DNA of 33,695 nucleotides, from the NCBI GenBank assembly GCA_030066735.1, contig JASJBB010000065.1, positions 1 to 33,695 of the forward strand. Reading direction: 5' to 3'. Both the position numbers and the translations under genes were made by a program. Positions 2 through 16,249 of the stretch are shown piece by piece. This stretch comes from Woeseiaceae bacterium (GTDB lineage: Bacteria; Pseudomonadota; Gammaproteobacteria; Steroidobacterales; Woeseiaceae). Below the pieces are notes generated by a model. That model was not told where the DNA came from. It searched no databases and saw only the letters and a list, made by a program, of their open reading frames with translations. The first letter of the stretch is position 1. Every line of letters starts with the position of its first letter.

Positions 2-1849
2 CTCGAGCTGTCGAGCAGCTTCCATCCGGCCCGGCTGCGGGAGCTGCTGCGCGAGCCGTTGTTCACCTACGCCAACGTTCCGTACCGCATTCGGCCCTTC
101 GAGGCCCTGCTCAAGGACCCGAAGAACACGGTCGACTATGACGAGGACTCCGCGGCACGTATCGAGCAACGCGTCGCCCAGATCGGCTCGGACGGCAAGC
201 TGATCCTGGATGCCGAAGGCAACGTATACCAGGTCAACCTGCTCGAGAAACTTCTCGTGCCGCTGCTGGCCAAGCTCGGCAACCTCGTCGTTGACGGCGG
301 CATCTGGATGAACACCCAGCGCCCCGAATGGAACGACGCCAACAACGCCCTGGTCGGCCAGGGCCTGTCAATGGTGACGCTTTACTACATGCGCCGTTAC
401 GTGCGTTTCCTGCAGCAGTTGCTGGAGCAGGAATCGGGTACGTTTGCCCTGTCGGGCGAAGTCGGCGACTGGCTGGCAGACACGGCCGCCGCCCTGAGCC
501 GGGTGCGCGGTGAACTCGGCGGAGCGCCGCTCGAGGCGTCGCAGACCTACGAACTGCTCGGCGAACTCGGCGCCGCGGCATGCCGCCACCGGAAAGCCAT
601 CTACGAGAGTGAGTCGTTCTCGGGAACAGTCGAGCAGCCGCTGGCGGCCGTTAACGGGATGCTCGACGACGCCCTTGCCGCGATCGATCACAGCATCGGC
701 AACAATGTCCGTGACGACGGCATGTACCACGCCTACAACACGCTGCACGTTCGCGACGAAATCCTCGATACCGGCACGCTGTACACGATGCTCGAGGGCC
801 AGGTCGCGGCCCTGAGCGCCGGCGCGATCTCCGCGGACGAGGCCGTCAGCGTGCTCGACGCACTGTTCGCCAGCAACGTCTACAGGGACGACCAGAAGTC
901 GTTCATGCTGTACCCGGACCGGGAACTCCCGGGATTCCTGGCCAAGAACCGCATCCCGGAAGACGAGGTCGCACAGATCCCGCTGCTGCGGAGCATGCTC
1001 GAAGCGAACGACAGCAGCATTGTGCTGCAGGATGGAGACGGCCATTACCGGTTCAATGCCAACTTCGCCAACGTCGGCGACCTGCACGAACAGCTGGATG
1101 CACTGTCGGCGACCTACGGCGAGTCAGTGGATGCAGCGCGCCGCCCGCTGCACGCACTGTTCGAGCGCGTCTTCAATCACCAGGACTTCACGGGCCGCTC
1201 CGGCACGATGTTCGGATTCGAGGGACTGGGCTGCATTTACTGGCACATGGTCTCCAAGCTGCTGCTGGCCATCGAGGAGAATTTCTTCGCCGCCATCGAC
1301 AACGGTGCCGACGAGGCGGCCCTGCAGCGCCTGGGCGAGCTCTACTACCGGGTGCGCGGCGGTATCGGCTTCAACAAGACTCCTGCCGAATACGGGGCGT
1401 TCCCGACCGACCCCTACTCACATACGCCGAAACACAGCGGCGCCCGTCAGCCCGGCATGACCGGCCAGGTCAAGGAAGAAGTGCTGACGCGATTCGGCGA
1501 GCTCGGCATTCGCGTCGACGACGGCATCGTCAGGATCCGGCCCGCACTCCTCCGGGCGAGGGAATTCATCAACGAGCCCAGGGAGTTCTGCTATCTCGAC
1601 GTCGACGGGAACTGGCAGAACATGACCGTTCCCGCGGGCGGGCTCGCGTTCACCTGGTGCCAGGTACCCGTGGTTTATACGCTCGGCAATTCCGATTCCC
1701 CGTCGCTGACGATCACGGGCGAAGACGGCGTGCGCACGTCGGACCAGCTGGCGCTTTCGGCGGAAGACAGCGCCGCCCTGTTCGGCCGCACGGGAACCAT
1801 CCGGGCGCTCCATGTAACTATCAACCGCGACGACTTGTTCGCAGACTGA
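2..1849 (+). CDS. C-terminal part of a large (alpha/alpha)6-barrel-like protein, possibly a beta-1,3-glucan phosphorylase (5' truncated)
   Basis: The frame is open to the left edge, so this is the 3' portion (about 615 residues) of a larger protein. The visible part begins inside an alpha-helical region. It contains an EWNDANNAL motif at bases 326-352, which resembles the DWND segment that carries the general acid Asp in GH94-type phosphorylases. Further on are a helix-rich stretch with FGFEGLGCIYWHMVSK (near base 1210), a PGMTGQVKEE motif (near 1453) and a beta-rich tail like a jelly-roll cap. These are seen directly; assignment to a GH94/GH149/GH161-like phosphorylase is inference from this pattern and from the two signal-less GH17 genes directly downstream. 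The next gene starts 10 bases after the stop with its own AAGGA ribosome site, so the three probably form one operon. It could instead be a glucan-active (alpha/alpha)6 protein of another family. Confidence 0.55.
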   Translation, partial: LELSSSFHPARLRELLREPLFTYANVPYRIRPFEALLKDPKNTVDYDEDSAARIEQRVAQIGSDGKLILDAEGNVYQVNLLEKLLVPLLAKLGNLVVDGGIWMNTQRPEWNDANNALVGQGLSMVTLYYMRRYVRFLQQLLEQESGTFALSGEVGDWLADTAAALSRVRGELGGAPLEASQTYELLGELGAAACRHRKAIYESESFSGTVEQPLAAVNGMLDDALAAIDHSIGNNVRDDGMYHAYNTLHVRDEILDTGTLYTMLEGQVAALSAGAISADEAVSVLDALFASNVYRDDQKSFMLYPDRELPGFLAKNRIPEDEVAQIPLLRSMLEANDSSIVLQDGDGHYRFNANFANVGDLHEQLDALSATYGESVDAARRPLHALFERVFNHQDFTGRSGTMFGFEGLGCIYWHMVSKLLLAIEENFFAAIDNGADEAALQRLGELYYRVRGGIGFNKTPAEYGAFPTDPYSHTPKHSGARQPGMTGQVKEEVLTRFGELGIRVDDGIVRIRPALLRAREFINEPREFCYLDVDGNWQNMTVPAGGLAFTWCQVPVVYTLGNSDSPSLTITGEDGVRTSDQLALSAEDSAALFGRTGTIRALHVTINRDDLFAD

Positions 1850-1859: not shown

Positions 1860-2750
1860 ATGTCGTATCTCTACCAAAGAAAGTTGTCTTTGGCCGGCAT
1901 CGATATCGCCGGCATGTCGGAAATCGACCTGCGCAAACTGGTGCGCGAGATCCTGGAAAACGGTATTCACGGCATCTCGTTCAGCCCCTACGTGGAGGGA
2001 CAGGGCCCGGGTACACAGATTGGCGCCGACCAGATTCGCGAGCGGCTGGCTTTCATCCAGCCCTACGTTAACTGGATACGCACCTTCTCCTGCAGCGAAG
2101 GCAACGAACTGATTCCCGCCATCGCGAAAGAGAACGGCCTCAAGACGATGGTTGGAGTCTGGCTCGACGACAACAAGAAGCAAAACGAAATCGAACTGGC
2201 CAACGCGATCGAGATCGCGAAGGCCGGACATGCCGACATCCTTGGCGTGGGCAACGAGGTATTGCTGCGCGGGGATCTCAGCGAGGACGAATTGATCGAC
2301 TACATCGAACGGGCGCGCACCGGCGTCTCCGGCAGCATCCCGGTGGGTTACGTCGACGCCTATTTCGAATTCGAAGTGCACCCGCGAATTACCGCAGCCT
2401 GCGACGTCATTCTCGCCAACTGCTACCCGTTCTGGGAAGGATGCCCTGCGGAACACGCCCTGCTGTACATGAAGGAGATGTACCGCCGGGCGCAGCGTGC
2501 GGGGGGCGGCAAGCCCGTGATCGTTTCCGAGACCGGCTGGCCCAACATCGGGACGCCGACCGACGGCGCAGTGCCGTCGCTGGAGAACGCGATCAAGTAC
2601 TTCGTCGACACCTGCCAGTGGGCCGAGGAAGACGGCATCGAGGTGTTCTATTTCTCCTCGTTCGACGAAACCTGGAAAGTGGATGCCGAAGGCGACGTCG
2701 GCGCGTACTGGGGTCTGTGGGACAAGGACGGAAATCTCAAGTATGTCTGA
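1860..2750 (+). CDS. Cytoplasmic GH17-family beta-1,3-glucanase-like enzyme
   Basis: This is a 296-residue TIM-barrel protein of glycoside hydrolase family 17. The acid/base motif VGNE places the glutamate at residue 133, and the nucleophile motif SETGWP places it at residue 224; both are intact. Family GH17 cleaves (or transglycosylates) beta-1,3-glucans with retention. There is no signal peptide, so it should act in the cytoplasm on imported laminari-oligosaccharides. The ATG is preceded by AAGGA at good spacing, 10 bases after the upstream gene. It overlaps the next GH17 gene by 8 bases, which indicates translational coupling. Bacterial GH17 proteins can also be transglycosylases, and the sequence does not settle this. 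Confidence 0.85.
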   Translation: MSYLYQRKLSLAGIDIAGMSEIDLRKLVREILENGIHGISFSPYVEGQGPGTQIGADQIRERLAFIQPYVNWIRTFSCSEGNELIPAIAKENGLKTMVGVWLDDNKKQNEIELANAIEIAKAGHADILGVGNEVLLRGDLSEDELIDYIERARTGVSGSIPVGYVDAYFEFEVHPRITAACDVILANCYPFWEGCPAEHALLYMKEMYRRAQRAGGGKPVIVSETGWPNIGTPTDGAVPSLENAIKYFVDTCQWAEEDGIEVFYFSSFDETWKVDAEGDVGAYWGLWDKDGNLKYV

Positions 2751-3711
2751 GAAGATCAATGGGCGGGTCTGCGCGATGAGCGCGCTGGGCCTCGACCACG
2801 GCAATGCGATCTGCTATTCCGGCTACCGCGACGGCCAGAGCCCGCAAAGCCGGACCTACCCGTCGTACGACCAGGTTCGCGAGGATCTGCTGATTCTCGC
2901 GAAGAACTGGGAGTACCTGCGCCTGTACGACTGCAGCCCGCATGCCGAGACCGTGCTCAAGGTCATCCGCAACGAGGGGCTGAAGTTCAAGATCATGCTG
3001 GGCCTGGACATGGCGGCCGAGATGAGCAACCCGCACTGCCCGTGGGGGGCCGAGTACAGCGACGAGGTCCTCGACGCCAACCGGCGCGCGAACAACGAGG
3101 AAGTGCACCGCCTGATCGACCTCTCCAATGCCTTCGACGACATCGTGTTCATGGTGTCGGTGGGCAACGAAGCCAGCGTCGAGTGGACCGATCACATGGT
3201 TCCGGTCGACAACCTGGTCGAGTACGTGCGGGAGGTCAAGAAGTCCATCAAGCAACCCGTGACGTTCTGCGAAAACTACGTGCCTTGGACGTACAAGCTG
3301 GAACCGCTGGCCGAGGAGCTAGACTTCATCGCCGTCCACACCTACCCGGCCTGGGAGTACCGGTCGATCCATGATGCCCTGGAGTTCACCAAGCAGAACT
3401 ACCACTCGGTCGTCGACCACTACCCCGGTAAACCGGTGATCATCACCGAGGCCGGCTGGACGACCGCGGCCAACGGCCGTGGCATCGATCCCCACAATGC
3501 CTCCGAGGAACTCCAGGACAGCTACTACAAACAGCTACTCGAGTGGACAACCGAAGAAAAGATCCTGACGTTCGTGTTCGAGGCCTTCGACGAGCCGTGG
3601 AAGGGATCCCCAGATCCCATGGAACCCGAGAAACACTGGGGCCTGTTTAACGTCGAGCGCAAACCGAAGCTGGTCATGCGCGAGCTTTACCCGGAGCTCG
3701 AGACGGACTGA
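2743..3711 (+). CDS. Second cytoplasmic GH17-family enzyme
   Basis: A 322-residue GH17 protein starting at the ATG (MSEKING) inside the last codons of the preceding gene; a longer start at 2683 would overlap that gene by 68 bases and is unlikely. The acid/base motif VGNEAS puts Glu at residue 143 and ITEAGW puts the nucleophile Glu at residue 236. It lacks a signal peptide. It is clearly more like the secreted GH17 at 15218-16231 than like its immediate neighbour: both share HTYPAWE, FEAFDEPWKG and EKHWGL blocks. The likely role is intracellular breakdown or remodelling of beta-1,3-gluco-oligosaccharides. It ends 1 base short of the convergent gene on the other strand. Confidence 0.85.
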   Translation: MSEKINGRVCAMSALGLDHGNAICYSGYRDGQSPQSRTYPSYDQVREDLLILAKNWEYLRLYDCSPHAETVLKVIRNEGLKFKIMLGLDMAAEMSNPHCPWGAEYSDEVLDANRRANNEEVHRLIDLSNAFDDIVFMVSVGNEASVEWTDHMVPVDNLVEYVREVKKSIKQPVTFCENYVPWTYKLEPLAEELDFIAVHTYPAWEYRSIHDALEFTKQNYHSVVDHYPGKPVIITEAGWTTAANGRGIDPHNASEELQDSYYKQLLEWTTEEKILTFVFEAFDEPWKGSPDPMEPEKHWGLFNVERKPKLVMRELYPELETD

Positions 3712-3712
3712 T

Positions 3713-5452
3713 TCAGTCGCCGCTGATGAAGCGAATCGTGTCGAGATAGAGCGTCACGGGCTTCCTGTCACCGGTGATGCTGATGAAGAACCCGGTCTTG
3801 ATACTCGACAGGTCCTTGCCCTGCAAAGGAACGACGTAGCGCTGCCACTGGTCGGTCAGCACGACATCCTTGATCTCGGTCTTCGAGGAATCCGGAAAAT
3901 CCTTACCCTTCCCTGTCAGGCCGACACCGAAGCTGACCGTCTCGCCGCCCTCCGCGCCGCGCATCAGGAACTCCAGCGCCGTCGCACCCTCCACGTTGAA
4001 GCCGCCGTCCTGATCGCCCCAGTTGTTCGGGGGATGCTGCCAGGCAATCCCGGCCCAGCCGTACCGCCCCGCGTATCGAATCTTGATGGACGCATCGCCC
4101 ATGGCCGGATTCTCGGCATTGGCGCCGTCCAGTGACAGGGCGTCGGTATTGCCCATGAAGCCGGAGGGCACCCAGGGCATGTTGTCGAAGCTGTCTGTGT
4201 ATACCGGAAACGGCATTGGGGGACGGACCTCGCCCTTGACGAGTAGCGGCACGTTGGCCGTGGCCGCTTTGCCGCCCTGGTCCCAGGCATAGACGAACAG
4301 CCGGTAGGCGCCGGGGTCGTCCGGCATGCGCACCCGCGCGCCGTCTGCACGGCCCTCGACAATGGCGCCATCGATGTCAGGCATGGGCGGACGATAGTCA
4401 CCGCCGGTCAGGTAGTCGCCGGAATCGGCACGCAGGGTCCATCTGACCCGCAGGTCTCCGCCTTCGGGGTCCCCGAGGGCCGTGGAAACATCCACGAGCT
4501 GGCCGGGCTCGAGCTGGGCGGGGCCGGCAATCTCGATAGGCTCGACGGTCGGCGCAAGGTCTTTTGGCGGACTGCCCGACCAGATCTCGGTCATCGCATC
4601 GACAGCGCCCGTCTGCGAACCGTCGGCGAGCAGCATTCCGAACCAGGTCTCGGTAGCTTCTACCTTGTCGCCCCACAGGAATGCGTAGGCGCCCAGCGCC
4701 ATGCCGGGCGCCGCCTCGATGCTCTTCTCATAGCTCTCGCGGTAGAAGTCGGCCTTCGCGGTGCTGGTCTGCTCGTACGGCGCGCCCCAGTCGGTCTTGG
4801 GCATTTCCCAGGGGCCCAAGGGACCGAACTCGGTCAGCACGAAGGGCTTGCTGGCGCCGCCGTCGCGCAAGAACTGCGGCACGGCCTGGGCGCCGCCATA
4901 GGCGTTGACGCCGTGAATGTCGATGGCCGGGCTCTTGTTATGCAGAAAATCGATGCGCTCACCGTGCACGAATGCCGTCACGGTCATCGTTGGGTGATGC
5001 GGGTCCAGTTCCTTGACCATTGCCGCCACGTCGTTGATCGCTTTCCAGACGGCAGGGTTATCGGCGTTGCCGAAGCCCTCCGCCTCGTTGCCCACGCCCC
5101 ACATGAGCAACGCCGGATGATCTTTGTACTTGAGCACCGTTTCGCGGGCCTGCTCGAGCTGCGCGGCCACCTGCGCATTGTCGCTGTAGTCGAAGCCGTG
5201 GCGCTCGTGGCCGAGCCAGATGCCCACCGTAACCGTCATGCCGAGCGCGTGTGCATCGTCGAGCAAGGCGCCAGCGTCACCACCCCAGGTGCGGATCGAA
5301 TTGGCGCCAGCGGCGGCCAGCTCGCCGAGCGGGCCGTCGCCGCCCGCACCACGAATGAAAAACGGCTCGCCGCCGCGCAGCAGCTGCCAGCCCGATTCGG
5401 ACTGGCGAACCTCGACGGGGATCGCCTCCGCGGCAGCGGCAGCAGGCATCAT
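3713..5452 (-). CDS. Clan GH-A (GH2-like) glycoside hydrolase with C-terminal carbohydrate-binding-like domain
   Basis: From the ATG at 5452 the protein has 579 residues. Residues 15-295 form a TIM barrel of the kind seen in GH2 and related clan GH-A families, with GNE (Glu 123, acid/base) and LTEFG (Glu 208, nucleophile). A linker and Ig-like segment (about 300-400) follow, then a beta-sandwich of about 170 residues (about 410-579) resembling CIA30/CBM-type domains. The N-terminal GH2 sandwich domains are absent. The annotated ATG has an AGGA ribosome site 6 bases upstream, but the frame stays open for 15 more codons and these encode most of a signal peptide without an ATG, GTG or TTG (see findings). 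It is probably exported and is last in the GH16-led operon. The substrate is inferred from context to be beta-glucan. Confidence 0.7.
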   Translation of the reverse strand: MMPAAAAAEAIPVEVRQSESGWQLLRGGEPFFIRGAGGDGPLGELAAAGANSIRTWGGDAGALLDDAHALGMTVTVGIWLGHERHGFDYSDNAQVAAQLEQARETVLKYKDHPALLMWGVGNEAEGFGNADNPAVWKAINDVAAMVKELDPHHPTMTVTAFVHGERIDFLHNKSPAIDIHGVNAYGGAQAVPQFLRDGGASKPFVLTEFGPLGPWEMPKTDWGAPYEQTSTAKADFYRESYEKSIEAAPGMALGAYAFLWGDKVEATETWFGMLLADGSQTGAVDAMTEIWSGSPPKDLAPTVEPIEIAGPAQLEPGQLVDVSTALGDPEGGDLRVRWTLRADSGDYLTGGDYRPPMPDIDGAIVEGRADGARVRMPDDPGAYRLFVYAWDQGGKAATANVPLLVKGEVRPPMPFPVYTDSFDNMPWVPSGFMGNTDALSLDGANAENPAMGDASIKIRYAGRYGWAGIAWQHPPNNWGDQDGGFNVEGATALEFLMRGAEGGETVSFGVGLTGKGKDFPDSSKTEIKDVVLTDQWQRYVVPLQGKDLSSIKTGFFISITGDRKPVTLYLDTIRFISGD

Positions 5453-5500: not shown

Positions 5501-6187
5501 TTACTGGTTCTTGGAAAGCGTGTCGTTCTGCTCGTTGTAGGTGTAACCCCACTCGCCGATCAGGGCAAGGCCTTCCAGCACCGAACTCACGAGCGGACGG
5601 AAGCCCTCCGGAGGTCCATAGATGACGTCCCGCGCAGTCTGCTCGTTCAGCTGGACCGGAATCACCTCGCCAAAGACATTGAAGAACGTCACCTGTCCGA
5701 AGAAATTGTCGAGCACGGATCGATACGCCCGCTTGGCGTGCTCCTTGATCAACTCGTCTTCGAAGATCAGGTTGCTGTTGGCGTCGTACAGCTCATGCAG
5801 CGCCCGGGCCGTGTACCACTGATTCTCGCCCGTCTGGCGCCGTGCAAGCGCCGTTGCCCAGAGATAGAAGCGCGCTTTCGCGCCAGTTGGCCCCTGCGGC
5901 AGGGCGGCGGCAAGGGCGAACTTGTCGTCAAGCAGCGGATTCCCGTCGTCATCTTCGGGCACCTGGTCGGGTTCCGGTATGGCCGTAACGGAAAACGGGT
6001 TCTCCGGGTCAGCCAGGACACATGTCTCGTCGTTGATGCCAACGTCCGGGCAGAACAGATTCAGGACGACGTCGGTCGGCAACAGGATGTTGTCGATGAC
6101 TTCCCCGTCATTGGAATCCCGTTCGCTACAGCCAGTAACAACAAGAGCCGCGAAGGCCAGCAACACTAATTGATATGCAGTTTTCAT
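5501..6187 (-). CDS. Small lipoprotein of unknown function in the glucan operon
   Basis: A 228-residue protein with a type II signal peptide: a hydrophobic segment ending in VVTGC, so Cys 20 should be lipidated. The mature part is acidic at first and then mainly alpha-helical; I recognise no domain. The ATG at 6187 has GAGGA upstream at about 9 bases. It lies 33 bases after the stop of the glycosidase/beta-barrel fusion, and its stop codon is directly followed by the coding frame of the next glycosidase. This placement suggests an accessory role at the envelope, perhaps helping the barrel fusion or binding glucan. No function is assigned. Confidence 0.75.
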   Translation of the reverse strand: MKTAYQLVLLAFAALVVTGCSERDSNDGEVIDNILLPTDVVLNLFCPDVGINDETCVLADPENPFSVTAIPEPDQVPEDDDGNPLLDDKFALAAALPQGPTGAKARFYLWATALARRQTGENQWYTARALHELYDANSNLIFEDELIKEHAKRAYRSVLDNFFGQVTFFNVFGEVIPVQLNEQTARDVIYGPPEGFRPLVSSVLEGLALIGEWGYTYNEQNDTLSKNQ

Positions 6188-6220: not shown

Positions 6221-9200
6221 CTAGAACACGTACTCAACGTAAAAGACCGTCATGAACTGGTAGTCGCTCAGGCCCTCCTGGGACTCGCCGAACGTCATTT
6301 CATCTTCCGGATCATATCCCCGGTAGAGTGTTCGTATGCCGACCCTTGTTCCGGTGCCGCGCGTCTCCCTTGGCTGGAAACCGCTGCCGTCCAGGATGAC
6401 CGAGTAGTCGAGTTTGAACTGCTCCGGGAAAACGACGTTGAACTGCCGGTGGAAATCATAGGGTCCCCACGCGTCTTTCTTGAAGTAGCCCTCGATGACG
6501 TGCTTGTTGCGCAATATCACCTTGCCGTGCAGCTCGTAGAACTCCCGCGATCCGCCTTCTGCGTTACCGGACGACTGCTGGAAGCCGCCCTTGAGTTGCA
6601 CGATGTACTTGTTGCGTTGCGTGGGATTGAAAACCATCCGGCTGCTGGCCGACCAGACGTTCTCCGACGGCAACCCCGTGCCAAAAGCAGCGTTGCTGTT
6701 ACTCAGCAGCGAGAAGAACTGGAACGAGTCAGTCGCGGTCGGATATTCCGTGTAGTTGCCGCCCAGGTTGAACGCGAATTTTGCGTCTTCCTTGTAGTCG
6801 TTGTCCCATTCGTAGAAGAACGTCTCTCCGGTGGGATCGTAGGTCAGGAATATCTCGGCGGATCGCGCCTCGCGATTGTCGAGAACGGCAAACGGGTCGT
6901 CGTCGCGGTTACGCGGTCCGATACCCGGGAACAGCTCGCCGAGGTTCGGATTCGGATTGATCTCGGCCGGAATGGACGGGTTTGCATCGACCAGGTTCTC
7001 GCGATACATGACCCGCGGCGTGAGCATGATATTGCCGAACGTAATGTTCATGCCGGCATCAAACTCCATCTTGTTGCCCCACTGCGAGTACGGGATCATG
7101 GTCGGATCCATTATCCCGAACTCCCTCAGCACGTCACCTCCGTCGGCAACCAGGCCGGCGTAATGACCGCCAATCCACGTCCGGTGGCCGAACACCGGGA
7201 ACGTCAGCTTGACGCGCGCTCCGAGCGTGTCTTCGTCCTTGATCTGGTCGAGGTAGATCGTGCCGTCCTCATAACGTGTAAACGTATCGTCGATCTTCTC
7301 GTTACTGGCAAAGATACCGCCGACTTCGAGAGTCCAGCCAGCCGCAAAATCTCGTTTGGCGTACAGCGTTGTGCGACGGGTCTGAATCTCCGTCGCCTGC
7401 GTTGCCGACGCCGAGTCTCCGCGGCGCGCAATGTCCTCGTCGTGCATGAACGTGAACTGGGTCCTGCCCCAGTTCCAGCTGTACTTGAGTATGACTTTCG
7501 GGTTGGCGCCCCAGAACACCTCGTCGCCCGCAAGGACCTTCAGGCCGTCGCCCCAGCCTTCCTTGCCCGCGAATTCAACGCCCGAAGGCGCCTTGGCGTT
7601 CCAGATGTCCTGGCCAGCCATGTCGGTCGTCTCGCGAACCAGCCCGAAGAAATCACCTTCGTTCATCCAGTGATAGCGCGGCGTGTGATAGAAAGCCTCG
7701 ATATCCCACTCATCGCCCTCGTACTTGGCGTTGAAATCGTAGATTTCGATACGCTCGCGATCGTCAAAAGAGACCACGTCCGTGACTCTGGCGTCCGGGG
7801 GCAGAAATTCTGCTTCTTCCGGAAGAGGATCCCGCTCGACGACGAGGTCGACCGGTAGCGCGCGACGCCCGTAAGCGATCTCGAGCGGCTCCTTGTTGGC
7901 GACGTTGCCGAGGATGTTGATCGACATCTGGCCTTCGATCTTCTGGTTCGGGTTGAAGCCGATGTCGAGGAACACCATCTGTCCGTTCTCAAACTCGAGG
8001 GCATTTTCGCCGTCTATCCGGATGCTCTCCTCTTCGCCCTTGACGACGAGTTCACCGATCAGGCTGCCGCCCTCGAAGCGCAGACGCGACTTCTGTTCCT
8101 TGCTCTCGGCCTTCAGCTGCCGGACCTCGCCCTTCAGGGCGTATAGATCCATGTCGAGATCGTTGATCTCCTGGTTGAAGGCGGCTTTCTTGTACGTGTA
8201 GGGATCCATATGCCAGATCTCTGCCAGCACGTCGTAGGCCATTCTCTGGCGAGCCGTGTATACGCCATCAGCGTTCTTCGTGCCGAGGGCGGTAATGCCA
8301 AACCACTCCTCGTTCATGTTGTTCTCGCCTTCAGCCCAGTCGAACAGGTAGGCCTGGTTGGACCACGAGGCATTGGTGTCCTGGACATCCAGGTTCTCGG
8401 TCTGCAGGTATTTCCACCACTCGTCGCGCCATTCGAACACGAAACCGCCGATCGCGTTGCCTTCCTCGCCGTTACCGGCGGCCTTGTTGTACATCTCCTG
8501 CCATTGCGCTTTCAGGATCTCGGCCTGCGCCACCTGGTCTTCTTCCATTTCGCGCGCATTGAATGCGTCGCTGCCAAACTCGAAGAACACGATGGGCATG
8601 TCGAGTTTCTCGTCAACGTCGCGCCACAGGCTGGTAAAACTCTTGCCGCGGTAAACGTTGGTGCCGAGGATCGGCATGTCGGCCAGGTATTCCGCAATCA
8701 GGTCGATGTACTGGATATCGCCGTTGACGATCGTGAACGGGTGATTCGGTGCGATTTTCTGCCCGGCCTCGATAACCTCCGCGAACAGGCTGTAGAGATA
8801 CCGTGCCTTGGCCGTGTTCTGTTCGCCTTCAGGCAGGTTCTCGATCTCGAAGCTCGACCACGACAGGCCGTAGTTGCTCTCGTTGCCCAGCGCGAACATC
8901 AGCACTCCGGGCGTGTTCTTGTATTTCTCGATAACCTCCAGGACTTCAGTTTTCAGCGTCGCGCGGGTCAACTCGTCGGAATAATCGGTGAACGGTACCC
9001 ACTTGCCGCCGATCGAGGCGCCGTAACGGCCCATGAGCGGGTTGATCACGCTCATGATGCCGTGCTCGCGGTAGATGTACTCGACCCACTCCGGCGGAAT
9101 AACCGTGAAGCTGCGGTTCGCGTTGATGCCCGCAGCCGCCATCATGCCGAACTCGTAGTCGAGCACCTTGCGAATGAAGTCGTCGGACTCGGCCCAGAGG

Positions 9201-9484
9201 TTGTAACTGTAGTTCTTGCCCCGTGGCGAGTAGCTCCAGACGACGCCCTTGATGTAGAAGTCCTCGCCGTTGACCTGCAGCTTCCAGCCGCTGTCGTCCT
9301 TGACAGTGGTCACAAAGTCGGCCGCATGCACCTGGCCGGCAAATGGAGCGCTGAGGACGACGACAGCCGCCGCGAGGCCGATGACTTTTCTGATGCTCTT
9401 AAAGAAGCTTATACCCGCCATAGCGATCACTCTGGTTTGTAAATTATTGTCTTTGGATACGTCGGTAAATTGCATTGTCTTCAT
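6221..9484 (-). CDS. Clan GH-A glycosidase fused to a putative outer-membrane beta-barrel
   Basis: A 1087-residue exported protein. A signal peptide ends near VHA-ADF (about residue 54). Residues 60-430 form a GH2-like TIM barrel with LGNE (Glu 202, acid/base) and FFEFG (Glu 302, nucleophile). Residues about 432-468 are charged and heptad-like, probably a coiled coil. A short beta-rich segment (470-560) follows, and residues about 570-1087 alternate polar and hydrophobic/aromatic residues in repeated strands separated by Asp/Asn/Gly-rich loops. The chain ends in YVEYVF, a terminal aromatic typical of Bam-assembled outer-membrane barrels. The barrel and its topology are inferred from this pattern. 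The ATG at 9484 has GGGAG just upstream; an ATG at 9421 would give a more ordinary signal peptide. It sits between the CBM-repeat lipoprotein and a small lipoprotein. Confidence 0.75.
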   Translation of the reverse strand: MKTMQFTDVSKDNNLQTRVIAMAGISFFKSIRKVIGLAAAVVVLSAPFAGQVHAADFVTTVKDDSGWKLQVNGEDFYIKGVVWSYSPRGKNYSYNLWAESDDFIRKVLDYEFGMMAAAGINANRSFTVIPPEWVEYIYREHGIMSVINPLMGRYGASIGGKWVPFTDYSDELTRATLKTEVLEVIEKYKNTPGVLMFALGNESNYGLSWSSFEIENLPEGEQNTAKARYLYSLFAEVIEAGQKIAPNHPFTIVNGDIQYIDLIAEYLADMPILGTNVYRGKSFTSLWRDVDEKLDMPIVFFEFGSDAFNAREMEEDQVAQAEILKAQWQEMYNKAAGNGEEGNAIGGFVFEWRDEWWKYLQTENLDVQDTNASWSNQAYLFDWAEGENNMNEEWFGITALGTKNADGVYTARQRMAYDVLAEIWHMDPYTYKKAAFNQEINDLDMDLYALKGEVRQLKAESKEQKSRLRFEGGSLIGELVVKGEEESIRIDGENALEFENGQMVFLDIGFNPNQKIEGQMSINILGNVANKEPLEIAYGRRALPVDLVVERDPLPEEAEFLPPDARVTDVVSFDDRERIEIYDFNAKYEGDEWDIEAFYHTPRYHWMNEGDFFGLVRETTDMAGQDIWNAKAPSGVEFAGKEGWGDGLKVLAGDEVFWGANPKVILKYSWNWGRTQFTFMHDEDIARRGDSASATQATEIQTRRTTLYAKRDFAAGWTLEVGGIFASNEKIDDTFTRYEDGTIYLDQIKDEDTLGARVKLTFPVFGHRTWIGGHYAGLVADGGDVLREFGIMDPTMIPYSQWGNKMEFDAGMNITFGNIMLTPRVMYRENLVDANPSIPAEINPNPNLGELFPGIGPRNRDDDPFAVLDNREARSAEIFLTYDPTGETFFYEWDNDYKEDAKFAFNLGGNYTEYPTATDSFQFFSLLSNSNAAFGTGLPSENVWSASSRMVFNPTQRNKYIVQLKGGFQQSSGNAEGGSREFYELHGKVILRNKHVIEGYFKKDAWGPYDFHRQFNVVFPEQFKLDYSVILDGSGFQPRETRGTGTRVGIRTLYRGYDPEDEMTFGESQEGLSDYQFMTVFYVEYVF

Positions 9485-9496: not shown

Positions 9497-12400
9497 CTAG
9501 TTGATCGTGAAAGTGACGTTGTCGAAGGAGACGTCCTGCGCGCAGCCGTCGACCGGGCCGCAGGAGACTTTCAATGACAGAACTACACCACCGCTAACGT
9601 CGAAGCTGCCACCGCCGAAGGCTGTTCCCGCGGTAACCGTGCCCGAATACGGAGTCCAGGTCGTTGTCGCCGTATACGGGGTTGGATCCGAGTTGAGGAA
9701 ATCCCGGCCTCCGACATCCTGGCCATTGGCATCCAGGAATATCACTTCGACAAACGTAGCAGCGCCAGGCTGGGTCACGGTTCCGTACAGATCGAAAGTG
9801 ACGGTAATCGTATCGCCAGCCATTACCGTACCCTGCGCCAGGCCTTCCTGGCTTATGACGGCGTCATTGAACGATGCCACGGATCCGCTTACAACCAGCC
9901 TCGCAACAGTGCCGGCCCGACCACCCTGGCCGCTGTTGTCAGCGTTTATGGATCCGAGACCGCCGCCGACATCATCCACCAGGGTTTGCGTCCAGCCGTC
10001 CAGGCCGGCTTCGAAATCGCCGTTGACGAGGCTGCTGCTGCCGCCTCCGCCACCGCCGCCACCCGGGCCGAAGGCGATGTCGTCGAAGTAATACGTCTGC
10101 GCACCGGCAGTCGCACCGTCGACCCCGAAGTTGAAGAAGATCACGATCTTGTCGTAGGTCGCCGCCGGGTCAAAGACCGGTGTGCCCGCTGCCTCGTTGG
10201 CGAAGTCGAACGTCAGCGTCTCCCAGGCGCCGGACGTGGTCGTCGTCGCCTCGGTCTCCACGGACACGGCCGGGTCGGCCGAGTTTTCGATCTTCAGTCG
10301 AACCTGGACACCGGTGGCCGCCGAGTACACCCGCACGTTCATCTCGGTGTTCATCGCATCGAGCGGAATCACCTCGATCGTCTCGTTCGGGCCGGTCGAC
10401 ACCACGGTGCCGGCGAAAGTCTCCGCCGCGCCCGACCGGTCAACCTGCACGACCATGTTCGTGCCGCCGGCCGGATCGTTGGTCACGAAAGAGCCCTCCG
10501 CACCGCCGAACCCGCGCAAAGTGTAGGTTACGGCCGGGTCGTCGAACGTGATCGTTGAGAACGACGGACCGGGTCCGCCACCGCCGCCGTTACCGGGCAC
10601 GAACATGATGTCGTCGAAGTAGAACGTCTGTGCACCCGCGGTCGCACCGTCGACACCGAAGTTGAAGAAGATCACGATCTTGTCGTACGTCGCTGCCGGG
10701 TCGAACGCCGGCGTTCCCGGTACTTCGTTCAGGAAGTTGAAGGTCAGCGTTTCCCAGGCGCCAGCAACGGTCGTAACCGCCTCGGTCTCCACCGATACAG
10801 CCGGATCTGCCGAGTTCTCGATCTTCAGGCGAACGGTTATCCCGGCCGCCGGCGACCAGACCCGCACCGACATCTGCGTATTCATCGCATCGAGCGGAAT
10901 GACCGTCACGGTCTCGTTCGGCCCCGTCGACACGACGGTGCCGGCAAATGTCTCCGCGGCGTCCGAACGATTGACCTGCACGACCATGTTCGACGCATCG
11001 GTGGGATCGACCACAACCGTCGAGTCCTCGGCTCCGCCGAAGCCACGCAATGCGTAGGTGATGGCCGGATCGTTAAAATCGATCGTGGGGAACGCGGATC
11101 CACCGCCACCGCCGCCGACGTCAATGTCATCGAAATAGAACGTCTGTGCGCCGGCAGTCGCGCCGTCGACGCCGAAGTTGAAGAAGATCACAACCTTGTC
11201 GTAGCTCGCCGCCGGATCGAAGGCCGGCGTGCCCGCCGCCTCGTTGGCGAAGTCGAAGGTCAGCGTTTCCCAGCCATCGGCAACCGTCGTCACGGCCTCG
11301 GTTTCGACCGAGATCGTGTCATTGGCCGAATTCTCGATCTTCAGGCGGACCGTGATTCCGGCCGCCGGCGATCTCACGCGCACGCTCATCGTCGTGTTCA
11401 TCGCGTCGAGCGGGATGACGCCGACAGACTCGTTGGCCCCGGTCGACACCACGGTGCCCGCGAAGGTCTCCGCGGCATCCGAGCGGTTGACCTGGACGAC
11501 GGTGTTGCCGGCGTCGTCCGGATCGGCCTGCAAGGTCGAGTCCTCGGCGCCGCCGAAGCCGCGCAGCGCATAGGTGATCGCCGGGTCGTTGAATGTGATT
11601 CTCGAGAATGGCGGTGGGGCTGGTGGCCCGCTACCACCTGCGACGTCGATGTCGTCGAAGAAATAGGTCTGCGCGCCTGCGGTAGCGCCGTCCGCACCGA
11701 AATTGTAGAAGAACACGACCCTGTCATAGGTCGCCGCCGGGTCGAAGGCCGGCGTGAATTCGACGTTGTTGGCAAAGTCGAACGTCAGCGTTTCCCAGCC
11801 ATCGACGACCGTGGTCGTCGCCTCGGTCTCGACGGATATGGTCGGGTCAGCGGAGTTCTCGATCTTCAGCCGAACCTGCACGCCTGCCGCTGGCCCGCGC
11901 ACGCGCGCGGTCATCGTCGTGTTTGCCGCGTCGAGCGGTATGATGCCCACGGTTTCGCCGGCCCTGGTCGATACGATGGTGCCCGCGAAGGCCTCCGCAG
12001 CGTCGGACCGATTAACCTGCACGACGTTATTGCCCGCATCGTCCGGGTCCGCAACGATCGTCGAGTCTTCGGCCCCACCGAAACCGTTCAGACCATAGGG
12101 AACCGTGGGGTCGTCAAACGTGATCGTCGAGAACGGATCCGACGGTCCGGGTCCGCCACCGCCATCCGGCGGCACGAGGGTTATGTCATCAAAATAGAAA
12201 GTCCAGTTGTCCGGGTCTCCCGCACTATCGCCGAGCACACCGTTGTCGAAGATCAACGTCATGCCGCTGACAGTGCCCTGCAATGTCGGCATCGGGAACG
12301 TCAGCGTCTCCCAGCCCGTGCCGCCATGCGTCACTTCGGTACCGGATCCGGGACCGGCCGGTTCGGGCTGCAGCAACACCCGGACCTCGCGCGTCGCATA

Positions 12401-12796
12401 GACTCTCATCGTCCAGGAGCTGCCAGGCTGCACACCTGTAAACGTTACGGTCAGGTTGATCGTGCTGCCGCCGAACGTTGCCCCGGACTCGGCCCGGAAC
12501 TTGAGCATGCGGCCCACGGCCAGGCTGTTATTGCCCATAGCTACTTCTTCGGGCAGGTCCGCGACATTCACGACCGTTATTACGCCGCCTTCGAAGTTCG
12601 TGAACGTATCCGCCGGGCACTGCGGCTCGAAATTGATCGGATCGCAGAAGCCTGGCGGAATAGGCGGCTCGGGCGGCGCCGGGCTGTTGAAGGTGCGATC
12701 CTGCCCGTCGCCTTCACCGAAGCAACCTGCCAGGAAAATGGCGGGAATAATGAACGTAAGAATGCGTGACAGGCGCCTGGAAGCTGATGCATGCAT
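9497..12796 (-). CDS. Surface lipoprotein with four tandem carbohydrate-binding-like repeats
   Basis: About 1099 residues from the ATG at 12796; an in-frame ATG at 12835 with an AGAAG ribosome site is an alternative. The signal peptide ends in FLAGC, so the protein is lipidated at Cys 25. An N-terminal beta-sandwich (about 45-210) ends in a YFDDITL motif. Four repeats of about 163 residues follow (about 221-383, 396-561, 567-732, 745-908), each starting with an ITFDDP-like strand, containing GFGGAE and VRLKIENSA, ending in FDDI, and joined by Gly/Pro-rich linkers. The last domain (about 921-1098) starts NGDFEAGLDGW and ends SFDNVTF, like CBM4/9-type sandwiches. There is no catalytic motif. 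It is probably a glucan-binding protein, functionally comparable to a surface glycan-binding protein. It lies between GH16 and the barrel fusion in one operon. Confidence 0.8.
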   Translation of the reverse strand: MHASASRRLSRILTFIIPAIFLAGCFGEGDGQDRTFNSPAPPEPPIPPGFCDPINFEPQCPADTFTNFEGGVITVVNVADLPEEVAMGNNSLAVGRMLKFRAESGATFGGSTINLTVTFTGVQPGSSWTMRVYATREVRVLLQPEPAGPGSGTEVTHGGTGWETLTFPMPTLQGTVSGMTLIFDNGVLGDSAGDPDNWTFYFDDITLVPPDGGGGPGPSDPFSTITFDDPTVPYGLNGFGGAEDSTIVADPDDAGNNVVQVNRSDAAEAFAGTIVSTRAGETVGIIPLDAANTTMTARVRGPAAGVQVRLKIENSADPTISVETEATTTVVDGWETLTFDFANNVEFTPAFDPAATYDRVVFFYNFGADGATAGAQTYFFDDIDVAGGSGPPAPPPFSRITFNDPAITYALRGFGGAEDSTLQADPDDAGNTVVQVNRSDAAETFAGTVVSTGANESVGVIPLDAMNTTMSVRVRSPAAGITVRLKIENSANDTISVETEAVTTVADGWETLTFDFANEAAGTPAFDPAASYDKVVIFFNFGVDGATAGAQTFYFDDIDVGGGGGGSAFPTIDFNDPAITYALRGFGGAEDSTVVVDPTDASNMVVQVNRSDAAETFAGTVVSTGPNETVTVIPLDAMNTQMSVRVWSPAAGITVRLKIENSADPAVSVETEAVTTVAGAWETLTFNFLNEVPGTPAFDPAATYDKIVIFFNFGVDGATAGAQTFYFDDIMFVPGNGGGGGPGPSFSTITFDDPAVTYTLRGFGGAEGSFVTNDPAGGTNMVVQVDRSGAAETFAGTVVSTGPNETIEVIPLDAMNTEMNVRVYSAATGVQVRLKIENSADPAVSVETEATTTTSGAWETLTFDFANEAAGTPVFDPAATYDKIVIFFNFGVDGATAGAQTYYFDDIAFGPGGGGGGGGSSSLVNGDFEAGLDGWTQTLVDDVGGGLGSINADNSGQGGRAGTVARLVVSGSVASFNDAVISQEGLAQGTVMAGDTITVTFDLYGTVTQPGAATFVEVIFLDANGQDVGGRDFLNSDPTPYTATTTWTPYSGTVTAGTAFGGGSFDVSGGVVLSLKVSCGPVDGCAQDVSFDNVTFTIN
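10072..12133 (-). repeat. Four direct repeats of about 490 bp inside the lipoprotein gene
   Basis: Approximate units are 11647-12133, 11113-11608, 10601-11096 and 10072-10560. They are alike at DNA level, for example in the segment encoding GVDGATAGAQTFYFDDI and in that encoding RSDAAETFAGTVVST. Units are separated by short Gly/Pro-coding linkers. High nucleotide similarity suggests recent tandem duplication or continuing gene conversion, and the number of units could vary between strains. Confidence 0.85.
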
Positions 12797-12907
12797 GAGT
12801 TCGGTCTCTGTATAACTGTTTAAATTAACTAGCATTTTTTCTTCTAGTTCTGAAGTCGGTCGGCACGGTGGACGGCCCCCGCGCGAGGTCGCTGGTCGAA
12901 AGGCCGG

Positions 12908-13846
12908 TTACCCGCCCGAATAAACCCGGACGTAGTCCACTTCCATCGTCACAGGAAACACGGTGTTGGCGTCCGGCGCACCGGGCAGATTGCCGCCGAC
13001 AGCGACGTTAAGCAGGATGTGGAAGGCCTGGTCGAATGGCGCCGGATACGGAGCATTGGTGGAGAACCAGCTGTTCTCCATCCGGTACATGACACCGTCG
13101 ATGTACCAGCGCATCTCGGCGGGATCCCACTCGAACGCGTATTCATGGAACTCGGCCTGCGCATCGCCGGGCACTTCCTGCTTCACGCCGGTGAAGGTGT
13201 TTTCCGGGAACACGCCACCAAAGTGAATGGTGCCGAAGATCTTGTTCTCGCCATTGACGCCGAGGTTGGTCGCCTCCATGACGTCGATCTCGCCGGTCGC
13301 CGCCCAGGAGCCATAGGGGCTGTCCTGGGACAGCAGCCAGAATGCGGGCCAGATGCCCTGGCCTCCGGGCAACCGGATGCTCGCTTCGATGCGGCCATAA
13401 CGGAATGCCATGCGGTCCTGGGTCGTGATACGCGCAGACGTGTAGTTGAAACCATTGACGAACTCTTCCCTGGCTTCGATGACGAGCTTGCCGTCGACCA
13501 GCTGCGCGTTGTCTGCCTGGTAATACTGCAGCTCGTTGTTGCCCCAGCCCGGAATGCCTTCGGCGGTGCCGTCACCGATCTGGAAGAGCCAGACGTCGGG
13601 GTCCAGCGCCGCGCCGTCGAACTCGTCGCTCCAGACGAGGGTCATCGGACCCCCGGGCCGCACGGGCTCGTTATCAAACAGCGTGAGGCCCGGCATGGGC
13701 ATTAGAGGCGGACGGTCAAAGACCCGTGGCCCGGGATCTACTTCGGAGAGTCTTGCGGGACGGTCACTGTCGGAGCAGGCCGCGGCGAACAGTAAGGCAA
13801 CTATGGGCAGCGCGAAGCGAAAGGCTCCCTGCGAACGAAGCTTCAT
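12908..13846 (-). CDS. GH16-family lipoprotein, laminarinase-like endo-beta-1,3-glucanase
   Basis: From the ATG at 13846 (AGGGGG ribosome site about 10 bases upstream) the protein has 312 residues; the longer open frame to 13915 runs into the predicted promoter. The signal peptide ends in LFAAAC, giving a lipidated Cys near residue 24. The mature protein is a GH16 jelly roll with the signature GEIDVMEATN: Glu 186 is the nucleophile, Asp 188 the helper and Glu 191 the acid/base. The form with Met in the signature is typical of laminarinase-type GH16. The Trp-rich WGNNELQYY and WPAFWLL segments are also characteristic. It would cut laminarin at the outer membrane or in the periplasm, and it is first in its operon, behind a LacI-type operator. 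Confidence 0.92.
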   Translation of the reverse strand: MKLRSQGAFRFALPIVALLFAAACSDSDRPARLSEVDPGPRVFDRPPLMPMPGLTLFDNEPVRPGGPMTLVWSDEFDGAALDPDVWLFQIGDGTAEGIPGWGNNELQYYQADNAQLVDGKLVIEAREEFVNGFNYTSARITTQDRMAFRYGRIEASIRLPGGQGIWPAFWLLSQDSPYGSWAATGEIDVMEATNLGVNGENKIFGTIHFGGVFPENTFTGVKQEVPGDAQAEFHEYAFEWDPAEMRWYIDGVMYRMENSWFSTNAPYPAPFDQAFHILLNVAVGGNLPGAPDANTVFPVTMEVDYVRVYSGG

Positions 13847-13875
13847 TCTTGTTATCCCCCTCAGTACGGAGCTGG

Positions 13876-13893
13876 CGGGGGACCATGCCCCCG
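13876..13893 (-). promoter_or_regulatory. GC-rich hairpin in the GH16 5' leader
   Basis: A 6-bp stem CGGGGG/CCCCCG with a 6-base loop lies between the predicted transcription start and the ribosome site of the GH16 gene. Its C-run could also pair with the AGGGGG ribosome site, so it may affect translation. There is no U-tract, so it does not look like a terminator. Confidence 0.3.
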
Positions 13894-13905
13894 TGCCGAA
13901 AGGGA

Positions 13906-13934
13906 TAAGTATCAAACAATGACAGCGCTGTCAA
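13906..13934 (-). promoter_or_regulatory. Predicted sigma-70 promoter of the GH16-led operon
   Basis: On the minus strand a perfect TTGACA (-35, bases 13934-13929) is separated by 17 bases from TACTTA (-10, 13911-13906). This places the start of transcription near 13899, about 50 bases before the GH16 ATG. The -35 lies inside the palindromic operator. Confidence 0.55.
13920..13933. promoter_or_regulatory. LacI-family-type operator upstream of GH16
   Basis: A perfect 14-base palindrome TGACAGCGCTGTCA with the central AGCGCT typical of LacI/PurR/CcpA-type operators. The same sequence occurs between the GH3 and symporter genes. It overlaps the -35 element, which fits repression by steric block. 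Confidence 0.7.
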
Positions 13935-14319: not shown

Positions 14320-15213
14320 TCAGGTGGAATCCGCGAACTTCTGCAATATCCAGTCGCGCAGCAGGCAGACGTCCGGGTCCCCTGCCCGCTCTTTCCTGTA
14401 AACCAGGTAATAGCTCACATCGGCAACGAACTCGTTCCTGAACAGCCGCACGATGCTGCCCTGCTTGAACCACTGGTCGGCCAGCGGCACCGGGACCAGC
14501 GCCGCGCCGATCCCGCGTTCGGCGGCGCGGACGACGGCGATCATGGAATCCAGCCGCGTCACCTTGCTGTCTTTCGGTAACGCAATACCGGAATCCTTCG
14601 ACCAGCGCTTCCAGGCTTTGGGTCGTGTTTCGTGCACGATCAACGGAAACTCGGTGACGATTTTTTTCTTCCTGACCACCATGTTCTTCTTAAAGTCCGG
14701 TGATCCCGTTGGCACCATCCGCAGCGGAAACAGCAGGTGTGACGCGAGGTTTTCGGGCGGCGACTTGAACAACCGAACCGACAGATCGACGTCGGCCGGG
14801 TGCTTTTCCGACGACTCGTCGCTCGTTCCCACCTGGATGTCGATATTGGGGTGCTCGGCCGTGAACTCGCTGAGCCGGGGTACGAAGTACTCACTGGCAA
14901 AAAACGGCTGCACCGAAATGCGGATGGACCGCGACGGGCCGTCCTTGCGATAGCTGCCGGCAATCGCATCGAGTCGCTCGATAAGGGGCTCGACTTCGTC
15001 GAAAAACGCCTTGCCGGTTTCCGTGAGTTTCAGCTCGCGGCTGCCGCGCACGAACAGTTGCACGTCCAGCTCCTGCTCGAGGCCCTTGACCTGGTGACTC
15101 ACCGCGGACGCGGTGATGAAGAGCTCGTCGGCGGCCTGCGTAAAACTCTCGTGGCGCGCGGCCACGCAAAATGTGCGCAGCCCGCGGAGCGACGTTTTGG
15201 GCCTGGCCGGCAT
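14320..15213 (-). CDS. LysR-family transcriptional regulator (GcvA-like)
   Basis: A 297-residue LysR-type regulator. The N-terminal winged helix-turn-helix covers about residues 9-66 (FCVAARHESFTQAADELF...VSHQVKGLE), followed by a linker helix and a two-lobed effector-binding domain (about 95-290). The overall sequence resembles the GcvA/AmpR branch. The ATG starts only 4 bases after the stop of the secreted GH17 gene, so it is probably cotranscribed with GH3-GH17. It may sense a glucan-derived or central metabolite and act on this locus; the target is inferred only from position. Confidence 0.88.
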   Translation of the reverse strand: MPARPKTSLRGLRTFCVAARHESFTQAADELFITASAVSHQVKGLEQELDVQLFVRGSRELKLTETGKAFFDEVEPLIERLDAIAGSYRKDGPSRSIRISVQPFFASEYFVPRLSEFTAEHPNIDIQVGTSDESSEKHPADVDLSVRLFKSPPENLASHLLFPLRMVPTGSPDFKKNMVVRKKKIVTEFPLIVHETRPKAWKRWSKDSGIALPKDSKVTRLDSMIAVVRAAERGIGAALVPVPLADQWFKQGSIVRLFRNEFVADVSYYLVYRKERAGDPDVCLLRDWILQKFADST

Positions 15214-15217: not shown

Positions 15218-16231
15218 CTATCTCTGCATCACCTGCTTGGGCGACCGGTCTACGAACCACAGGCCCCAGTGTTTCTCGGCACCCATCGGGTTGTCGGGAT
15301 TGCCCTTCCAGGGCTCGTCGAACGCCTCGAAGAAAAACACGGTGGTGTTGGTCCCGGTCGCCCAGGCTGTGATCTCGTTGTAATAACGTTCCTGCGCCGC
15401 TTCGCTGGCGCGGTCACCGAATTCGGACGCCGTCGTCGCCCAACCGGCCTCGAGGATCGCCATGGGCTTGCCCGGCAATGCGGTCTGCACGCGCTCCATG
15501 TTTTCGATCGTGTAATTCAGCGCCTCGTCGATCGTCTTTTGTTCCCACGCCGGGTAAGTGTGAATGCCGAGGAAGTCGACTTCCGCAGCAAGCGGCGCAC
15601 CATCCTCTATCCACCACTCGTAGTTGTCGGCCACGGTCACGGGCTGCTCAATGGCAGCTTTGACATCGCGCACATACCCGATCACCCGATCGAGCGGGAC
15701 CATGTGGTCGTTCCAGATGACCAGGGCCTCGTTGCCGACATTGACGGCTGCAACGATGTCACGGTACTCCTGCGCCAGTTCGATGCCGCGCTCGATCTCG
15801 AGCGCGTTGGCCACCTTGTTGAGCGCCAGCGCCGCCTGCGGGATGGGCTCGTCGAGCCACGGGCAGTTTTCATGGTTACTGACCTCGGCGCGCAGCCAGA
15901 TGCCGAGCAGTACCTTTATCGGCAGGTCGTGTTCGCGAATCAGTTCGAGGGTCATCGCCGAGTTGTCGCCGGCGTCATACAGCCGAACCAGGCCGAAGCC
16001 GTGATCGGCAAGTATGTTCAGGTCCTCGAGAACCTCCTCTGCACTCGGGTTGACGGCTCCGGCGCCGCGGTCAGGGTGCTGCCCCTCGCGAAATCCCGAG
16101 TACGCCAGGGCCATGACCTCGCCGTCGATCAAGGCGTCGGGCGGCTGGGAAAAGCCCGGCCCCGCATCCTGTTCCTGGGCGATGCCGGCGGCGGCCAGCA
16201 ACAGCAGCGCGATGCCAGCCATTGGTTTCAT
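15218..16231 (-). CDS. Secreted GH17-family beta-1,3-glucanase-like enzyme
   Basis: A 337-residue protein from the ATG at 16231, which has GGAGG 5 bases upstream; a GTG at 16237 is too close to that site. A signal peptide of about 19 residues (KPMAGIALLLLAAAGIAQ) directs export, probably to the periplasm. The GH17 barrel carries VGNEAL (Glu 168, acid/base) and LEAGWATT (Glu 261, nucleophile). It shares long blocks with the cytoplasmic GH17 at 2743-3711. It begins 18 bases after the GH3 stop and is followed after 4 bases by the LysR gene. Its likely role is trimming or transglycosylating beta-1,3-gluco-oligosaccharides outside the inner membrane. Confidence 0.9.
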   Translation of the reverse strand: MKPMAGIALLLLAAAGIAQEQDAGPGFSQPPDALIDGEVMALAYSGFREGQHPDRGAGAVNPSAEEVLEDLNILADHGFGLVRLYDAGDNSAMTLELIREHDLPIKVLLGIWLRAEVSNHENCPWLDEPIPQAALALNKVANALEIERGIELAQEYRDIVAAVNVGNEALVIWNDHMVPLDRVIGYVRDVKAAIEQPVTVADNYEWWIEDGAPLAAEVDFLGIHTYPAWEQKTIDEALNYTIENMERVQTALPGKPMAILEAGWATTASEFGDRASEAAQERYYNEITAWATGTNTTVFFFEAFDEPWKGNPDNPMGAEKHWGLWFVDRSPKQVMQR

Positions 16232-16249
16232 GATCACCTCCGCAAAGGG

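Follow-up and report, generated by a model that had tools for sequence, protein, structure and literature searches.

The stretch analysed here, called the window below, comprises 33,695 nucleotides of contig JASJBB010000065.1 from the Woeseiaceae bacterium assembly GCA_030066735.1. Its reverse strand carries, at positions 6221-9484, an open reading frame (ORF) of 1087 amino acids that is intact in the genome of the window and almost certainly encodes a glycosidase fused in one chain to an outer-membrane beta-barrel (Table 1). Of 33 aligned sequences, that of the window included, at least 90% retain Met22 (position 9421), the probable translation start. An earlier note on this DNA had proposed such a single chain, and the model of the barrel half, its fold matches and the occurrence of the barrel alone behind a signal peptide all bear this out.

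Residues Glu202, Glu302, Asn201, Tyr278 and Trp356 are invariant in all 77 aligned sequences, in agreement with the complete GH-A TIM barrel and the two catalytic glutamates (202 and 302) described in the earlier note. The alignment combined the window and 13 proteins with 63 of the 74 rows (hits in the 81 loci introduced below) that passed the filter. An Asn-Glu acid/base and a Glu nucleophile on a GH-A TIM barrel, as in glycoside hydrolase (GH) family GH158, are present (N201-E202, E302). The fused domain matches GH158 with a profile E of 1.5e-7, the best stretch covering only positions 130-272, and with a single-sequence E of 0.0015; since the neighbouring gene at 3713-5452 scores E 1.7e-103, the fused domain is far more distant from the family, and it is probably a distant relative of the GH158/GH157 beta-1,3-glucanases. 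A C-terminal Ig-like domain of the BuGH158 type, possibly no family requirement, is absent from the model of the fused enzyme according to DSSP, which assigns two strands (344-349 and 355-359) and helices to the region between TIM barrel and linker. The GH2 family PF02836 stays below the Pfam cut-off in the window protein (17 versus 21 bits); it is present in the precomputed annotation of some relatives, which is probably the reason for their 'GH2 TIM barrel' names.

The barrel half was modelled separately, because the VIA list for the full-length model was taken up by the TIM barrel. Structure prediction of this half, which had been called for earlier, yielded a membrane-barrel fold: AlphaFold2 on residues 466-1087 alone, with 71 sequences (62 loci, L096, 7 proteins and the window), gave a mean predicted local distance difference test (pLDDT) of 90.9 and a predicted template modelling score (pTM) of 0.87. 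All 50 VIA-align and 50 Foldseek matches listed for this model are membrane beta-barrels by description, the barrel chain of multi-chain entries having been picked by length. They include AlgE, OprD/Occ channels, TonB-dependent receptors, pilus ushers, LptD, OmpM1, chitoporins and VDAC, with AlgE at the top of the VIA list, level with OprD-type channels. The Foldseek superpositions are poor (TMq 0.23-0.38), so that the class of fold is supported and not a family. Pilus ushers align across the whole 1-622 range of the model, which together with the strand list suggests roughly 22-26 predicted strands. The general features of outer-membrane beta-barrels, namely a signal peptide, amphipathic strands and a closed barrel, are thus all predicted, closure on the strength of the matches to closed barrels.

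The earlier note had described about 520 residues of amphipathic strands ending in YVEYVF; the barrel and its end were confirmed, while its length was corrected to about 620 residues (466-1087). The strand patterning lies far above chance as a sum (hydrophobic alternation over 28 predicted strands 59.3 versus 35.0 +/- 4.8 in shuffled strands, 0 of 5000 as high), with 6 of the 28 strands significant singly (p < 0.05). The final F is shared by 118 of the 120 closest relatives listed and by 34 of 77 sequences in the diverse set, the barrel ending in L in Myxococcota and in K, M or N in most Bacteroidota. A 'small beta domain' (about 470-560), previously taken for a separate unit, consists in the models of the first strands of the barrel, which starts at 468. 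The 'short coiled coil' before it is a helical linker. Averaged over all 77 rows, its heptad periodicity was not significant (p = 0.35), a value that pools the gammaproteobacterial branch with the others, and a coiled-coil trimer linker of the ScrY/OmpM kind is thus not supported for the family as a whole; by inspection, the Myxococcota and Bacteroidota linker rows have no coiled-coil look.

No solved sequence relative of the barrel was found, and no Pfam family matched it above noise: the 71 barrel members gave four weak families at E 0.1, taken for noise, the best being DUF6882 (5 members, best E 0.00079). The SusC/TonB-receptor families Plug PF07715 and PF00593 had no match in these members at E 0.1 or in the whole window protein. 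PHROGs returned one marginal match (E 0.0054).

Table 1. The fusion gene, its parts and the neighbouring genes of the window
Feature	Positions	Strand	Evidence or remark
Glycosidase-barrel fusion gene	6221..9484	-	1087 aa; probable start Met22 at 9421
Signal peptide, residues 22-54 (..GQVHA|ADF)	9323..9421	-	By reading of sequence and hydrophobicity
Clan GH-A TIM-barrel glycosidase domain, residues 55-430	8195..9322	-	GH158 is nearest solved sequence
Glu202 codon, predicted acid/base, motif GNE	8879..8881	-	77/77; aligns with GNE of GH158(Pro)
Glu302 codon, predicted nucleophile, motif FEFG	8579..8581	-	77/77; aligns with TEFG of GH158(Pro)
Helical linker, residues 431-465	8090..8194	-	
Predicted outer-membrane beta-barrel, residues 466-1087	6224..8089	-	Roughly 22-26 strands
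Beta-signal-like C-terminal end YVEYVF	6224..6241	-	
GH149 beta-1,3-oligosaccharide phosphorylase, C-terminal part, cut by window edge	2..1849	+	E 5e-155 to 6hq6
GH17, no signal peptide	1860..2750	+	Cytoplasmic by reading
Second GH17-like gene	2683..3711	+	26.7 bits, just below Pfam cut-off 28.2
GH158 enzyme	3713..5452	-	E 1.7e-103 to GH158(Pro) 9oro
Small lipoprotein, directly downstream of fusion	5501..6187	-	Often conserved; no Pfam family
Lipoprotein with tandem CBM35-like / Gal-binding repeats, upstream of fusion	9497..12835	-	
GH16 beta-glucanase	12908..13915	-	Pfam
LysR-type regulator	14320..15213	-	Pfam
GH17, signal peptide	15218..16237	-	Pfam; signal peptide by reading
GH3 beta-glucosidase, BglX-like	16250..18679	-	
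MFS_2 inner-membrane sugar transporter	18732..20099	+	Start approximate; ORF listed from 18357

Relatives of the whole protein numbered 3905 at E <= 1e-3 among 7997 scored candidates, and in the 120 listed the match spans 87-100% of the query. In a genome collection searched with two peptide patterns within the GH domain, at least 581 of at least 590 pattern stretches encode a relative. The best 80 loci from this search and the window's own locus, 81 in all, belong to Gammaproteobacteria (including Woeseiaceae and Thiomicrorhabdus), Cloacimonadota, Delongbacteria, Geomonas, Myxococcota, Ignavibacteriota, Balneolota and Bacteroidota. A single ORF matching both halves occurs in 79 of the 81, a few being cut by contig ends, so that the homologue search for the same fusion in beta-glucan loci proposed earlier found the one-chain layout to recur. 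The earlier statement that no described family has this layout holds for Pfam, NCBIfam and the literature searched, yet the layout is not rare. The two exceptions, L027 (8004-9347) and L029 (2995-4602), both from Woeseiaceae, contain only the enzyme, which ends just past the linker, with neither a barrel match nor the small lipoprotein in the sequence covered. The fusion is unevenly distributed: a match is present in 13 of the 61 genomes from the family of the window (its own genome counted, some hits being fragments) and in 3 of 398 from its phylum (its own genome and one weak hit included). Viral contigs gave no indication of carriage by viruses, since two stretches match a pattern and neither encodes a relative. 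The copy of a Bacteroides finegoldii strain is named 'glycoside hydrolase family 2 TIM barrel-domain containing protein' and lies in the order regulator, fusion, hypothetical, GH16, fimbrillin, hypothetical, bglX; susCD is not annotated in the 22.9 kb covered. Its record, NZ_OY725931.1 (L110), is a PLSDB 'plasmid' that has rpsA and a valyl-tRNA ligase and looks chromosomal.

Enzyme and barrel identities are correlated across 2926 pairs (r 0.89, 0 of 999 permutations as high), as expected if both had travelled as one chain. Nevertheless, the barrel is also found alone behind its own predicted signal peptide in one gammaproteobacterial clade. A barrel-only search returned proteins of about 586 aa with a signal peptide followed directly by the barrel, and 42 of 129 rows without a GH domain carry the whole barrel from the N-terminus; because the barrel and P0240 served as queries for these rows, the ratio is not a frequency. 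As 32 of the 42 have a clear hydrophobic leader, the idea that stand-alone barrels are mere fragments was rejected; by reading, eight of the other ten rows start inside the linker or the enzyme end, and P0254 and P0271 have a leader further in. L096 was discarded as a stand-alone barrel, being cut by a contig end, and a search of 274 genomes of the class with a stand-alone barrel as query gave four matches: the window's own genome, two fused copies and the cut L096. In a tree of 78 barrels hand-picked for spread (24 of the 42 stand-alone rows, 21 fused proteins, 32 loci and the window), the 24 stand-alone barrels form one clade (SH-aLRT 99) nested within the fused ones. Under the midpoint root this points to a single loss of the enzyme, a reading that another root would alter. 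In the barrel-only clade, the signal peptides of P0240, P0233, P0241 and relatives lead into ..ARG(P/S)D.P.

Profile searches of 80 loci found GH16 in 68, GH149 (the beta-1,3-oligosaccharide phosphorylase family of 6hq6) in 40, GH17 in 35, MFS_2 in 26, GH30 in 23, a close GH158 in 14 and GH3 in 8; lineage groups were assigned by hand on the basis of record titles, and a one-linkage clustering was set aside after it had merged GH16 with unrelated lipoproteins. The gene directly downstream of the fusion encodes a small lipoprotein in 23 of 30 gammaproteobacterial, Cloacimonadota and Geomonas loci and in 13 of 13 Myxococcota-like loci. In 33 of these 36 loci its start lies on the same strand, -86 to +46 nt from the fusion stop; the remaining three have long frames whose start is unclear. 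Among the seven loci without it, three end with the contig, L027 and L029 have no barrel, and L021 and L022 have one; GH149 directly follows the fusion in the latter two. A different family, of larger lipoproteins, is present in 37 of 37 Bacteroidota/Ignavibacteriota-like loci, and in 31 of them its gene follows the fusion directly (-43 to +75 nt). A Big_2 Ig-like domain occurs in two of its members, and in one CBM_11 reaches only 18.9 of the 27 bits required, so that carbohydrate binding by this family is a guess. In the window, the small lipoprotein has by reading a helical TPR-like motif; the CBM35-like repeats encoded upstream of the fusion are very similar to one another and joined by Gly-rich linkers, and that lipoprotein is a probable surface glycan binder. 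Genes at 30325-33427 on the forward strand resemble, by reading only, cbb3-type cytochrome oxidase subunits.

A TonB-dependent receptor or SusC was found in the flanks of only two of the 81 loci (L039 and L048) over 1017 kb of flank. The search combined single-sequence queries with a profile built on 12 receptor loci from these genomes and one SusC. The SusC of L048 was in the training set and is a hit by construction, which leaves L039 as the only independent one; the longest ORF taken from L088 for the profile is probably not the receptor frame. Given the receptor density of each genome, chance alone would give 3.7 in 43 loci, where 2 were seen; receptors are therefore no part of these loci. 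The genome of the window has 25 Plug matches over the cut-off, none of them on the window's contig. L039 and L048 also have in common a neighbouring protein of about 500 aa. In make-up the loci resemble type II GH149 clusters, except that the position of the receptor is taken by the fusion.

The favoured reading, which stands at about an even chance, is that the barrel is an entry pore through which beta-1,3-gluco-oligosaccharides pass independently of TonB, the enzyme being tethered beneath it in the periplasm. It draws on the sequence, the catalytic residues, the predicted fold, the conserved one-chain layout, the gene context and the scarcity of nearby TonB-dependent receptors, from which transport, membrane side, substrate and division of labour are reconstructed. 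GH16 and surface lipoproteins would cut and hold a laminarin-like beta-1,3-glucan outside the cell, and the oligosaccharides would pass the barrel by diffusion, without TonB. The GH-A enzyme, hanging from the barrel by the short linker, most likely in the periplasm, would cleave them as they come out; cutting below the pore would thereby keep up the inward gradient, so that substrate is trapped and drawn inward. GH3 and GH17 would continue degradation in the periplasm, MFS_2 would bring short oligosaccharides inward and GH149 would phosphorolyse them in the cytoplasm, the fusion taking on what falls to a SusCD pair or TonB-dependent receptor in other beta-1,3-glucan loci.

On which side of the membrane the enzyme lies is the point at which this reading parts from the 'surface enzyme-porin' of the earlier note. 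Fusion to an outer-membrane barrel stands, whereas a surface location is in doubt, since large outer-membrane barrels normally carry their N-terminal domains in the periplasm. In even-stranded barrels the N-terminus lies there as well, beside the C-terminus; a periplasmic enzyme is favoured for this reason and because surface display would need a type V mechanism. The order N-terminal enzyme, helix, C-terminal barrel is that of types Va and Vd, and the linker helix continues straight into strand 1, as would suit an autotransporter-like barrel that puts the enzyme on the surface, with the helix through the barrel and nothing else transported. However, such display is unlikely: type V autotransporter barrels have 12 or 16 strands versus the roughly 22-26 predicted here, none of the four weak Pfam matches of the 71 barrels is to an autotransporter family, and one clade keeps the barrel without a passenger, which would be unexpected for an autotransporter. 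Neither the strand number nor the Pfam matches thus fit a type V barrel. Slightly less probable still is a barrel that, like the capsule protein Wzi, only anchors the enzyme or binds glycan and offers no entry route. A 600-residue barrel would be costly where a lipid anchor would serve, stand-alone barrels are retained, and no TonB-dependent receptor was found at 79 of 81 loci, other kinds of outer-membrane transporter lying outside that search.

The position of AlgE at the top of the VIA list, tied with OprD-type channels, recalls export systems such as PgaA/PgaB or AlgE, in which case the pore would release self-made beta-glucan trimmed by the enzyme; a periplasmic glycosidase beside an export porin has a precedent in poly-N-acetylglucosamine (PNAG) export (PMC9384988; like the papers cited below, drawn on in excerpt). 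This is very improbable in view of the degradative neighbours GH16, GH149 phosphorylase, GH17, GH3, GH30 and MFS_2 and of Pfam scans that found no glycosyltransferase among the window genes tested, the other loci having been no part of that search. That residues 466-1087 are instead a soluble beta-rich region would fit the lack of a sequence match to solved barrels and the branch of Bacteroidota and Myxococcota whose C-terminus is not F; it is rendered extremely unlikely by the model, the fold matches, the strand alternation and the stand-alone barrels with a leader, all of which indicate a closed membrane barrel.

Several observations weigh against the entry-pore reading or narrow it. The barrel may contain a plug or be too narrow; the full-length model reaches a pTM of only 0.68, which bears on the enzyme's membrane side; the Bacteroidota/Myxococcota branch is without the classical C-terminal F; and the stand-alone clade keeps the barrel without the enzyme. 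The locus set is not a neutral sample, since it was found by two patterns in the GH domain, and that the loci serve beta-1,3-glucan use is inferred, the substrate being judged from the neighbours only. Receptors occur elsewhere in all 43 genomes, only 49 of the 81 loci have 5 kb on both sides, and the receptor profile may miss some. The small lipoprotein is no general partner: in profile searches it was found in 0 of 37 Bacteroidota/Ignavibacteriota-like loci, and the intact L021 and L022 (Thiotrichales/Thiomicrorhabdus, with about 8 kb downstream) have a barrel and no small lipoprotein, hence no strict partnership. A previously undescribed family that unites a glycosidase with its own entry pore in one chain, as a self-contained, TonB-independent SusCD replacement in which hydrolysis drives uptake, is tentatively proposed, at slightly less than an even chance. 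With the same reserve, the range of this putative enzyme-pore family would take in Gammaproteobacteria, Bacteroidota (a Bacteroides finegoldii strain among them), Myxococcota and Cloacimonadota as well as further groups.

Laminarin is among the largest marine carbon fluxes, diatoms alone accounting for about 5-15 Gt a year (PMC6246565), and SusCD-less beta-1,3-glucan loci (PMC5827456, PMC10811738) leave open how oligosaccharides cross the outer membrane. The fusion is real, widespread and, as far as searched, undescribed; it may well be the answer of SusCD-less loci to substrate uptake, and it offers a concrete, testable answer to oligosaccharide entry as well as a marker for such loci across phyla. 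Its barrel represents a membrane-barrel family with no Pfam entry and no solved sequence relative found. If the proposal is true, it describes an unrecognised way of cutting and importing algal and fungal beta-1,3-glucan.

In having a barrel with a probably periplasmic attachment, the fusion resembles the porins ScrY and OmpM1 and the export porins AlgE and PgaA. The attached part of these porins is not known to be an enzyme. The layout has no NCBIfam or Pfam family, and no report of a glycosidase fused to an outer-membrane barrel was recognised in the open-access literature searched, a scope that excludes subscription papers and bioRxiv. BuGH158 of the Bacteroides 1,3GUL (PMC7157763) shares a related fold, the catalytic Asn-Glu and Glu, and beta-1,3-glucan, the presumed substrate here; unlike the fused enzyme, it has a C-terminal Ig-like domain and a separate TonB-dependent transporter beside it. 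Type II GH149 clusters were described by Kuhaudomlarp et al. as GH149, GH16, GH17, an MFS transporter (pfam13347) and a TonB-dependent receptor, at whose place the fusion lies here; the excerpted text mentions no glycosidase-barrel protein, and it also describes Bacteroidetes 'CAZyme clusters' without susCD (PMC5827456). A Colwellia laminarin locus likewise has no susCD (PMC10811738). The Woeseiaceae laminarin loci of PMC12175321, from the lineage of several of the nearest named relatives, similarly combine GH3, GH16, GH17, GH149 and GH158, with a single SusC in seven, and the fusion is not mentioned in the excerpts of that paper. Utilisomes (PMC7618045) also bring an enzyme, a glycan-binding lipoprotein and a barrel together at one outer-membrane site, but as separate chains on a SusCD core, whereas the present protein is one chain with no plug family match. 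The nearest precedent found in these sources is FORMB_24740 (FbGH17b) of the laminarin degrader Formosa, which likewise joins a sugar transporter and a beta-1,3-glucanase in one chain, and for which the authors proposed coupled hydrolysis and uptake and knew of no such fusion in other bacteria (PMC6246565). That protein consists of a helical inner-membrane MFS domain followed by a C-terminal GH17, in contrast to the N-terminal GH-A domain and outer-membrane barrel found here in several phyla, and the present fusion would be the outer-membrane counterpart of this MFS-GH17 transporter-glycosidase.

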